DNA from: a virus
Length of the DNA: 36,911 bases
IMG/VR virus record: IMGVR_UViG_3300036766_000768
Location: 1-36,911 of that record
Strand: one strand, 5' to 3'
A model generated the notes under the pieces. The model had not been told where the DNA came from, did not search any database, and saw only the letters and a list, made by a program, of their open reading frames with translations. Each line of letters begins with the position of its first letter. Position 1 is the first letter of the stretch. The position numbers and the translations under genes are program-made. Shown piece after piece: positions 10,549 through 28,660 of the stretch.

Positions 10549-11418
10549 TCATTCGTAAATCCTCACAGATGTAGTAGGCGGCTTTCGATACGGCTCCAAG
10601 TCTAAGCCTGACAATTCGGGGATTTTGTCATACTGAATATTTCCTCGCCTAACAATTCGTTGAACTTTTGTATTCCCGATCTTTATCCTTGGATGATCAA
10701 AAATCAACTGTTTTCGGATTTCTTCCTTACGCTCTTCTATCCAAACTATATCCTGATTTAATTCTTTTAGTTTGCGAACTTTTTGTAATAGGTCAGGATC
10801 ATTTATCTCGATCCAATCCCTATCTATTGCCGGTGGAGGTTGGAAGTTTACCAAGAAGGAAAGAAACTCTAATTCCTTGGCTTGCATATCTTTGATGAAT
10901 TCTTCATCGCGATCAATTTGCAACAGGATGAGATCATTTAATATGAATTCATCTTTACCTAGTCTTTCGACTCTTGCAGAAGCATACCAGGCGCTAGGAG
11001 TCCCCATGACCATACATTGATGCTGGCATTGAGGAAAATAAAGATCTGGCACGTTTCCCTGTCGAGCTTGCTCGTGCGTAGTATGGCCAACAACTTTGAT
11101 CTCTACATGCTCAATTCCATCCCATCCATCTAGGGAAGCGATGAGATTAGGATGCTGTTTCATCTGAAACACTTTGGGCTCAAATTTCGTATTTAGCTCT
11201 TCGTTGACTTTTTGCAAGACGAAATCTTCTGCATCGATACCCAGCTGCATAGAATCGGTGGTCTTAATTTCCACTTCATTAATCAGGTCTTCCCAGGCTT
11301 GCAGAGCTGTACGATAGGGGCTGAGATTAAGAATCGTGGCAGCCATGCTTGCGCCGATCTTACCCTTTCTAAATTCTTTCCATTCAGAAGATCGCTGAGC
11401 GACTTTTACTTCTTGCAT
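10549..11418 (-). CDS. YqaJ-type viral exonuclease / recombinase nuclease
   Basis: This 289-aa protein belongs to the PD-(D/E)xK nucleases of the YqaJ/lambda-exonuclease type, which resect DNA ends for phage recombination. The N-terminal motif RSSEWKEFRKGKIGAS is followed by SPYRTALQAWEDL. The active site is visible as D97, then E106-I-K108 (HVEIK), and a later Gln-rich motif (YFPQCQHQ, Q130/Q132/Q134). The C-terminal 90 residues are a charged helical extension. It overlaps the HNH gene upstream by 13 bases. An SSB-like gene two genes upstream supports a recombination module. No clear annealing protein (RecT, Erf or Bet) is seen, unless the SSB-like protein fills that role. Confidence 0.9.
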   Translation of the reverse strand: MQEVKVAQRSSEWKEFRKGKIGASMAATILNLSPYRTALQAWEDLINEVEIKTTDSMQLGIDAEDFVLQKVNEELNTKFEPKVFQMKQHPNLIASLDGWDGIEHVEIKVVGHTTHEQARQGNVPDLYFPQCQHQCMVMGTPSAWYASARVERLGKDEFILNDLILLQIDRDEEFIKDMQAKELEFLSFLVNFQPPPAIDRDWIEINDPDLLQKVRKLKELNQDIVWIEERKEEIRKQLIFDHPRIKIGNTKVQRIVRRGNIQYDKIPELSGLDLEPYRKPPTTSVRIYE

Positions 11419-11981
11419 GAAACGATCCTTCCTTTTTCATCTCTATAAAGTATTTTGCTTTTTCTTTTTAAATGCCTCTTTTTGTTCACCATGTCTTGCA
11501 TATTTTCCTGGTGTGTTCCTATAAATAGATGGTATGGATTTACACATTTTGGATTGTCGCAATGATGACAAACAAATAATCCATTTTGAATCATTCCAAA
11601 TTCCATTTCCCAACTTAATCTGTGAGCGTAATTCGGTTTATTCATCACACTGATTGTTCCATATCCATAAATAGAAAAACTTCCCATCCATTCCCAACAA
11701 GAATCAGAGACATATACATTTTTCCAAAATCTTTTTTCTAAAGATTCTCGAAAAAGAAGACGACATCCGCAAGACTGAGAACAACCATTTTTTAGAAGAG
11801 ATCCTCTAACATGGTGCTCATTTCCGCAATCGCACTTGCAATGCCAAATAATCTGTCTACACTTACTGCCTTTTATTTTTTCAGATGGGTTTATAGCAGT
11901 CAAAAGGCCGAATCGTTGGCCTCGTAAATCTAACGGTTTAGCCCCAGAAGGGTTAACTCTTGTGTAAATCCCTTTAGGCAT
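11406..11981 (-). CDS. Free-standing HNH homing endonuclease
   Basis: This 191-aa protein has two parts. The N-terminal DNA-binding domain begins LDLRGQRFGLLTAIN and has paired cysteines CKCDCG and SCGC, the zinc-binding fold common in phage homing endonucleases. The HNH_3-type nuclease has AHRLSWE, then CHHCDNPKCVNPYHLFIGT with its His and Asn residues, and NMQDMV. The C-terminus is basic. It stands between the SSB-like and exonuclease genes, where it looks inserted. Such genes spread by cutting alleles that lack them. It is not inside an intron or intein as far as I can see. It might serve the ORF-less intron in the capsid gene, but nothing in the sequence shows this. Confidence 0.9.
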   Translation of the reverse strand: MPKGIYTRVNPSGAKPLDLRGQRFGLLTAINPSEKIKGSKCRQIIWHCKCDCGNEHHVRGSLLKNGCSQSCGCRLLFRESLEKRFWKNVYVSDSCWEWMGSFSIYGYGTISVMNKPNYAHRLSWEMEFGMIQNGLFVCHHCDNPKCVNPYHLFIGTHQENMQDMVNKKRHLKRKSKILYRDEKGRIVSCKK

Positions 11982-27334: not shown

Positions 27335-28660
27335 ATGTCAGTAACAACTACCGCTACCTATGGCTCGATGGCCGATAGATGGGCGCAAAGGGCATTGCTA
27401 CAACGTAGCAAACCACGATGCGTTCACAATTTATTTGGGCGAGCTTTTACGCTTCCTCAAAAAAATACTGATACAATGGTTTTCCGAAGACAAGAGAACT
27501 TGCCTTCCGATCCAGTTGTATTATCACAAGATGCGGATCCCGCACCTGTACAAGTCAATAAATTTGACATCAACGTAACTATTCAAGAGTTTGGTCAAGT
27601 CGTATTGCTCTCTCGTAAAGTCATCCTCGTTGTAGAAGATGACACAGCGAATGAGACTGCGGATAACCTTTCTCAGTCCATGCACACTATGCTGGATAAA
27701 GTAACGCGTGATGTATTTGCAAGTTCAGTACCTCAAATTTCTTCATTAAACGGAATTAACGGGAATGCGATTACAGAATTAACTCAAATTGATGTGAACC
27801 GTGCAATTGCATATTTAGATCAAAATGATTCGGAAAAAATGACTCCTACAATTGAAGGAACGTCAAGATTCGGTAAAATGTGTGCCGAATTAAAATCTTG
27901 GGTAATTGACTTGGAGTTCCTCGCCGCGTAAAGCGGACGGATAACAAGGGGCAAGTGAATGGACTATAAGAATTGGAATCCACCTAAAGGACAACTAGAG
28001 TTTGTTCTTTTAAAAGAAGGTACATACGGAGTTAAGAGATGTATCAATGGGATTCCTGTAGAAGATTTACAGCCTGAACGACTAAATCCTGAGACTCAAA
28101 ATGATAAATGCAGTTATTCATCAGAAGAGTGTTTTAAACTGATGAAGATATGTTCTTATCATGATGAGATGCGATAGTCTGAACTCTATGGAAACATAGA
28201 GAGAGTGATCCGAAGAGGTTGCTCCGCCAGAAATGGTCAGTAAGCGAAAGCCGAAGTAACAGAAATGACAGGGCCAGTAGAACCAGCTTATTGGGTAACT
28301 GCTCACGTAAAAATGAAGCCAGATATCCGTAATCTAGATGCGTTTGTGCCTACGTCCCAATATGGCAGTCAAGACCCTGTTTTGCAGGCGGAATTTGGCG
28401 CAACCGATGAGGCTCGCTGGGTTACCTCGACGCTCGTCACTGTAACCAGTGCAAACCCACCTGTGTTCTACAACACATTCATCGCAGCTAATGCGTATGG
28501 ATATGTAGGACTCGACGAAGTGTCGACAGAGATGATCTTGAAACCCCTTGGATTCAATGATTACCTTAACCGATTCCAATCAATGGGTTTTACTGCTTGG
28601 TTCAACGCAGCCATCTTGGATGACTCGCACATCGTAACCCTGCTTTCAACACAAGCGTAA
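27335..28660 (+). CDS. Major capsid protein, N4-gp56 family, gene split by a group I intron
   Basis: The coding exons are 27335-27874 (180 codons) and 28268-28660 (130 codons plus stop); joined, they give 310 aa. Splicing restores the run EGTSRFG-TGPVEPAYW, which matches the conserved stretch of N4-gp56 capsid proteins, where a Gly-rich loop precedes a segment ending in strands and a FVPTSQYG-like motif. The C-terminus (GFTAWFNAAILDDSHIVTLLS) is also typical. Unspliced, exon 1 would run on for 18 residues and stop at 27931, giving a truncated 198-aa product. AAGGAGAT precedes the ATG. It forms the HK97-fold shell. Confidence 0.92.
27875..28267 (+). ncRNA. Group I self-splicing intron, ORF-less, in the capsid gene
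   Basis: The intron is 393 nt. P1 pairs exon bases 27868-27874 (AUUCGGU) with 27884-27890 (GCCGAAU), leaving the required U.G pair at the 5' splice site. The 3' exon start ACA can pair with UGU 27881-27883 (P10). The core shows P6 (28056-28060/28068-28072), the R motif UGAACGACUAAAU with P7 GACUA (28080-28084) pairing with UAGUC (28175-28179), P8 (28117-28124/28139-28146) and P9 with a GAAA tetraloop (28184-28190/28195-28201). It ends in G 28267. The 72-codon ORF inside covers the catalytic core and is not a plausible gene. Splicing is essential, since the capsid protein is essential. Confidence 0.92.

Follow-up and report, generated by a model that had tools for sequence, protein, structure and literature searches.

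Results

A capsid gene in two frames

The major capsid (head) protein gene of IMG/VR virus record IMGVR_UViG_3300036766_000768, analyzed here as a window of 36,911 nucleotides, is placed downstream of the terminase and portal genes and is open in two pieces. One frame runs from 27335 to a stop at 27931, and another ORF spans 28265–28660. Excision of 27875–28267, a segment containing three in-frame stops, yields an unbroken 310-aa capsid protein that matches 80 IMG/VR viral contigs over its full length at 82–95% identity. The gene is organized as follows.

27335–27874, plus strand: exon 1 of the major capsid (head) protein gene, 180 codons (alignment of capsid relatives; PHROG 1357 match of the joined protein)
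27875–28267, plus strand: group I intron, 393 nt, phase 0, last base G (spliced-profile alignment; family covariance model; Rfam Intron_gpI at 24.6 bits, below gathering)
28268–28660, plus strand: exon 2 of the major capsid protein gene, 130 codons and stop (alignment of capsid relatives)

The intron falls between capsid codons 180 and 181. When the capsid profile was aligned to the DNA by spliced dynamic programming, with any U/G boundaries permitted and no base-pairing term, the intron was placed at 27875–28267; when the U/G condition is dropped, an equal-scoring solution appears one base off because the junction letters are ambiguous. In nucleotide alignment, 80 of 80 IMG/VR relatives run ungapped across the sequence TTYGGN/ACNGG (slash, splice junction), which reads TCGGT/ACAGG in the window. 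The profile alignment and the uninterrupted relatives, which show no gap at the junction, together reproduce the splice sites that an earlier note had read from this DNA, and the intron is very likely real with junctions exact to the base. The same note had described the joined product as an N4-gp56 capsid. The unbroken capsid protein stands, matching PHROG 1357 'major head protein' with E 1.7e-27, but a Pfam search of the joined protein returned no capsid family match and the N4-gp56 label is accordingly not confirmed.

Ribozyme anatomy

The intron has an exon-1 U paired with a guide G, a terminal G at 28267, P10, and a group I core from P3 to P9 that includes the P7 pseudoknot.

27867–27891, plus strand: P1, exon GATTCGGT (27867–27874) with internal guide GCCGAATT (27884–27891), 8 bp, U·G at the cut (guide-pairing test)
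27881–27883 with exon 2 28268–28270, plus strand: P10, 3 bp, ACA/UGU (guide-pairing test)
27897–28093, plus strand: P3, 27897–27902 with 28088–28093, CUUGGG/CCUGAG (family alignment; identical variant at locus L193, near variant at L099)
27910–27948, plus strand: P4, 27910–27913 with 27945–27948, and a P5 hairpin within 27917–27942 (family alignment)
27949–28075, plus strand: P6, 27949–27952 with 28072–28075; the loop is about 115 nt larger and contains the start of an ORF (family alignment)
28080–28179, plus strand: P7 pseudoknot, GACUA 28080–28084 with UAGUC 28175–28179 (sequence; aligned core)
28095–28168, plus strand: P8, 28095–28107 with 28156–28168, plus an additional 8-bp hairpin, 28117–28124/28139–28146 (folding)
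28184–28201, plus strand: P9, 7 bp, GAAA loop (Rfam alignment; folding)
28203–28253, plus strand: P9.1 28203–28224, P9.2 28226–28237 and an additional GAAA hairpin 28238–28253 (P9.1 covariation)

Every element named in the earlier reading (the U·G pair at the cut, P10, the terminal G, P6, P7, P8 and the GAAA-capped P9) was identified, and P3, P4, P5, P9.1 and P9.2 are added to them. P9.1 carries two-sided changes in all eight of its pairs in the family alignment, and the intron folds with a z-score of −4.4. The gap between P7 and P3′ measures only 3 nt (28084 to 28088); assignment to the group IA subgroup was rejected because P7.1/P7.2 are absent from this interval.

An intron family in capsid genes

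A first scan with one 16-nt core motif (GCGATAGTCTGAACTC) recovered at least 119 viral contigs, near-duplicate contigs included. Among the 119 contigs listed, 96 carry a family intron in major-capsid genes belonging to four PHROG families: 66 contigs split the window's capsid family (PHROG 1357-like) at many positions, and the other head genes among these matches belong to PHROG 283 (20 contigs), 14242 (5), 9953 (3) and a distant 1357 group (2). The non-capsid genes among the matches listed are a portal gene (1), major tail protein genes (2), ribonucleotide reductases (3) and a tape measure gene (1), with a further four contigs carrying a terminase-like gene that has no PHROG match, two a probable capsid gene and ten no clear flanking gene. 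Two further scans added loci, and family introns were counted only where both signature ends were present. On this count the window's capsid family holds at least 255 introns in at least 163 contigs. The capsid positions they occupy number 66 raw, or about 51 once merged; 34 of these were observed repeatedly, with a maximum of five introns per gene. The window's own site (TTCGGT/) and guide are present in 50 contigs, all adjoining capsid exons, and the closest relatives of the window intron are introns at this site, before codon 181, with 63–67% identity. Within the sampling stated, the capsid gene is well supported as the main target of the intron family. The earlier note's view of the shell gene as a less usual target holds for well-studied phages, in which a survey reports polymerase, terminase and nucleotide-metabolism gene targets and asks why only nucleotide and DNA metabolism have been colonised (PMC11878797), whereas introns of this family are usually found in the capsid gene.

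Individual loci illustrate the density of insertion. L325 and L359 each carry five family introns in one capsid gene, those of L325 at capsid columns 52, 79, 124, 228 and 305, and several family introns per gene also occur in other or probable capsid genes at L090, L153, L128, L119 and L167 (PHROG 14242, PHROG 283 and unassigned). A different group I motif, scanned likewise, gave mixed targets, among them tape measure, terminase and several head-protein genes, with several head-protein and tape-measure genes matched across loci L200–L319; across uncultured phages, introns may commonly target structural genes. The family is rare in sequenced phage records, where it splits a P22-type coat gene in an uncultured podovirus and a ribonucleotide reductase gene in a Roseobacter phage. 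In Podoviridae ctn9Y15 (MW202674.1, 14377–19495; our L442), a family relative lies between two CDS both annotated 'P22 coat protein'; this coat gene differs from the window's in belonging to another capsid family, and it is annotated as split CDS without recognition of the intron.

A small ORF in the P6 loop

The earlier note had called the intron ORF-less, a description contradicted by a reading frame that begins in the enlarged P6 loop and belongs to a class that is clearly coding.

27959–28177, plus strand: intron-encoded 72-aa ORF (MDYKNW...LQPERLNPE...HDEMR), TAG stop inside P7′ (frame reading; no Pfam or PHROG match)
27946–27951, plus strand: AAGGGG, Shine-Dalgarno-like, on the P4′/P6 strand 7 nt upstream of the ORF ATG (motif enrichment)

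The same arrangement recurs in introns of about 320–625 nt, in which an ATG a few bases past the core AAGGGGCAAG is followed by a variable P6 stretch, the core is translated as QPERL(S/N)... or QPERSKRED..., and the stop falls in or after P7′. From a start codon in its first 20 nt, the P6 loop is stop-free in 27 of 28 comparable introns against 0.9 expected by shuffling, and 25 of the 28 loops are in frame with the core codons. In a subset unselected for the motif, no stop interrupts the ORF frame in 27 of 27 introns; the other two forward frames are open in none, and the antisense frames in 2, 3 and 3. AAGGGG is present in 26 of 30 ORF-bearing mid-size introns, 5 of 26 minimal introns and 0 of 13 long introns (mid-size versus minimal, Fisher p 4.6e-7). 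Scanning for ACAAGGGGCAAGATTATG recovered 95 contigs, in which 98% of 106 complete ORFs reach at least 45 codons compared to 3% after shuffling. Related ORFs also show pN below pS (0.14 and 0.69 for L371/L362, 0.22 and 0.68 for the L181 pair, 0.27 and 0.71 for L088/L113), in pairs picked by protein likeness, a choice that itself favours pN < pS; global pairwise comparison at 40% identity gave many spurious pairs, and only clearly related ones were used. Judged from these sequence patterns, the P6-loop ORF class is well supported as coding.

The encoded cargo proteins are small and diverse. DUF551 was found in 3 of 31 and 3 of 82, CxxC pairs are visible by eye in many, and matches were obtained to PHROGs 924, 7704 and 60, all without assigned function. 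Searches of the cargo ORFs gave no match to any endonuclease family, to NCBIfam or to PADLOC, and DUF551-like cargo gave none among phage records. Introns above about 680 nt, by motif reading, carry LAGLIDADG- or HNH-like ORFs; for the window, a homing-endonuclease intron (LAGLIDADG, HNH, GIY-YIG or similar) was rejected, the 72-aa ORF having no Pfam or PHROG match. The window does encode a free-standing HNH_3 endonuclease gene at 11406–11981 on the minus strand (Pfam E 1.3e-12). Some cargo families occur at different capsid sites, including LLKKAA..CHP..CYP (L354, L370, L376, L332) and AEADGKC..CxxCG (L356, L363, L323), and two introns in the single capsid gene of L181 (2578–2748 and 3198–3368) encode paralogous small proteins with 29 of 41 residues identical.

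For the window itself, an intron that is real but whose ORF is accidental, with the P6 extension acting as structural RNA or junk that is never translated, would account for the hairpins into which the extension folds and for an ORF that has no homologue in viral contigs, Pfam, PHROGs or the retrieved family loci; a resemblance to DUF551-type proteins (L100) was visual only and was set aside. The chance that this one loop is open, taken alone, is also about 0.05 by shuffling. However, the extension folds no better than shuffled sequence (z −0.43), on which ground a structured-RNA role was rejected, the other five frames of the insert are closed, and the start position, the AAGGGG and the frame leading into the QPER core codons match those of the clearly coding class. 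An accidental ORF is accordingly unlikely, and the 72-aa ORF is probably translated; this is likely rather than established, because class position, Shine-Dalgarno-like site and frame all fit but the ORF has no homologue.

Two proposals about the intron ends were also rejected: a terminal NTG acting as the translation start of exon 2, since UG is equally common across phases (phase 0, 155 of 203; other phases, 40 of 52), and an immediate in-frame stop that protects folding, since neither of the other two frames is as open as the capsid frame.

A family covariance model and the general Rfam model

The Rfam group I model (Intron_gpI) scores 24.6 bits on 27865–28201 against a gathering score of 50, and a scan of the window gave no Rfam model at or above threshold. 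The same holds for relatives: across ten family loci, none of the family introns reached gathering, and one minimal intron was unmatched even at E 1. The gathering score is a detection threshold and not a biological trait, and failing it was not taken to exclude the window intron from group I because covariance-supported relatives with full anatomy also fail.

We built a family covariance model, R1, from an alignment of 30 minimal introns of about 197–245 nt (A1), window excluded. RNAalifold on A1 recovers P3, P4, P5, P6, P8 and P9.1, and two-sided changes occur in 26 of 32 model pairs, a level reached by 0 of 500 shuffles and far above shuffled and slid controls; P7 is nearly invariant across the family and so contributes little covariation evidence. 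The model matches both halves of the window intron (67.9 bits, E 1.1e-16, and 33.5 bits, E 1.1e-7) and has no match in 38 intronless relatives. Guide and exon form a P1 of at least 6 bp in 85 of 86 family introns compared to 24% of swapped exon/intron pairs, with U·G in 83, and a P10 of at least 3 bp is present in 66% compared to 10% when swapped. The covariance search proposed in the earlier note thus gives a divided answer, the general Rfam score falling below threshold and formally counting against an intron while the family model finds both intron halves. A group I intron in the major capsid gene is supported by splice junctions, anatomy and family model together.

A decayed intron that no longer splices, in a genome defective for capsid protein, would fit the low Rfam score, the tandem wobble pairs in P3 and a close clade that is otherwise intronless, but the core helices are all intact, P1 spans 8 bp, P10 is present, and the exons are full-length, in frame and 95% identical to relatives, making decay very improbable. 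Slightly less probable still is the earlier suggestion that splicing efficiency controls capsid dose or that the unspliced product is a dominant-negative form. The ORF at 27335–27931 exists and would encode the predicted 198-aa product, yet no conservation was seen in its extra 18 residues, 80 close relatives lack the intron, and this phage is not alone in having a short C-terminal extension, a generic feature of a family whose introns can be read in the capsid frame for a median of 55 nt; the proposal is left unsupported. An intein, programmed frameshift or assembly error, compatible with a length of 393 that is divisible by three, has a negligible probability given three in-frame stops, group I anatomy and the recurrence of the element, with guides that match, in 162 other contigs.

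Possible movement between sites

For 40% of core sequences the nearest neighbour lies at the same capsid site, compared to 8% with shuffled labels, and it hardly ever lies at another site in the same gene, indicating that descent bound to a site, or homing, dominates. Bursts of recent insertion within a single gene were rejected, same-contig nearest neighbours not being enriched. In the window's close clade, 38 relatives were scanned and are intronless, and by comparison with them the window's phage probably gained its intron recently.

Related ORFs are nonetheless present at different capsid sites. At capsid column 12, L354 has an intron that is 92% identical over 311 nt to the one that L370 has at column 184; the two encode the same cargo ORF and have in common a 12-nt target, CTGCGCCT/GTTC. 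Other related introns at different sites have changed guides, and target sharing among related introns at different sites is weak (3.5 versus 2.9 of 6 exon-1 bases). The L354/L370 pattern is what P1/P10-guided reverse splicing is expected to give and is suggestive of it, as one clear pair for which DNA-level routes are also possible; reverse splicing as the route to new sites is a tentative proposal, somewhat less favoured than not. A comparable situation is described for rDNA introns, in which related introns at different sites have short guide-complementary targets in common and spread by reverse splicing, although those introns reside in fungal nuclear rDNA (PMC1299323). We found no phage case of such spread in the open-access literature, and a review treats reverse splicing as without direct proof and equates intron ORFs with endonucleases (PMC3984707).

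Discussion

We consider the best explanation, at a probability of roughly 0.85, to be a group I ribozyme that splices the capsid mRNA and belongs to a capsid-gene family with a small P6 ORF and occasional spread to new sites. As the anatomy suggests, an external G would cut after U27874, TCGGT would be joined to ACAGG, and the 393-nt intron would be released by two-step chemistry. A core of about 200 nt suffices, and the window's form adds a P6 loop with a small ORF that would be read from the Shine-Dalgarno-like site inside the P4′/P6 core strand. Because that strand pairs in the folded core and the ORF crosses P6′, P7, P3′ and P8, folding (and with it splicing) and translation of the ORF would be mutually exclusive on any one molecule. 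The family is kept mostly at fixed sites, by vertical descent or homing, and would occasionally arrive at a site not occupied before where P1 and P10 match equally, an outcome expected if intron RNA reverse-spliced into the abundant mRNA of the capsid gene.

Capsid introns themselves already have precedents in LittleE, Tuc2009 and crAss-like phages. Mycobacteriophage LittleE carries a group I type intron in its major capsid gene, with splicing proven by RT-PCR and protein sequencing, but that intron is about 820 nt long with an opposite-strand LAGLIDADG-type ORF and represents one case in one cluster, in contrast to the many-site family described here (PMC3706429); Tuc2009 is cited in that report as a capsid intron precedent. 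The crAss-like phage MCP likewise holds several group I introns per capsid gene, with one MCP in five fragments, although its segments were recognised by endonuclease or intron domains in genomes of 145–192 kb and no small-ORF class was described (PMC7886860). For the ORF, the closest parallel is the 'core creep' of the T4 td intron and I-TevI, where a P6-region ORF has an end overlapping P6a/P7 and a ribosome-binding site sequestered in RNA structure; endonuclease ORFs with a start in P6 and an overlap with the core have been described before, and the td ORF is a homing endonuclease in a thymidylate synthase gene, unlike the small diverse proteins without endonuclease match in the window's family (PMC3073962). 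Bastillevirinae and Twort-type introns are also phage group I introns, some several per gene, but they occupy only DNA and nucleotide-metabolism genes, average 802 nt and include no capsid gene (PMC11878797). Intron-rich gut phages are known (PMC12363816). Our search of the open-access literature turned up neither an intron family centred on capsid genes nor small non-endonuclease ORFs described as a class, and the family, although large, is apparently unrecognised.

A broader reading, to which we give a little under even odds, is that a widespread family of small group I introns is specialised in phage major-capsid genes. In this reading the P6 loop would serve as the cassette that carries various small non-endonuclease proteins, the core would supply both Shine-Dalgarno sequence and C-terminal tail, and the introns would come to new sites through reverse splicing, guided by P1, into the late mRNA of highest abundance.

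Phage introns reported so far are found chiefly in genes for replication and nucleotide metabolism, and the usual assumption is that their ORFs encode homing endonucleases, while this family concentrates in the shell gene, with many members holding small proteins in a fixed loop and about 51 positions occupied in one capsid family. Annotators and Rfam miss these introns, so the capsid genes of many uncultured phages look broken. The near-identical introns of L354 and L370, with their common 12-nt target, offer a concrete case for the long-debated process of reverse splicing. If the ORFs are expressed, the introns would give phages room for accessory genes within the gene that they express most, and splicing would compete with expression of the cargo.
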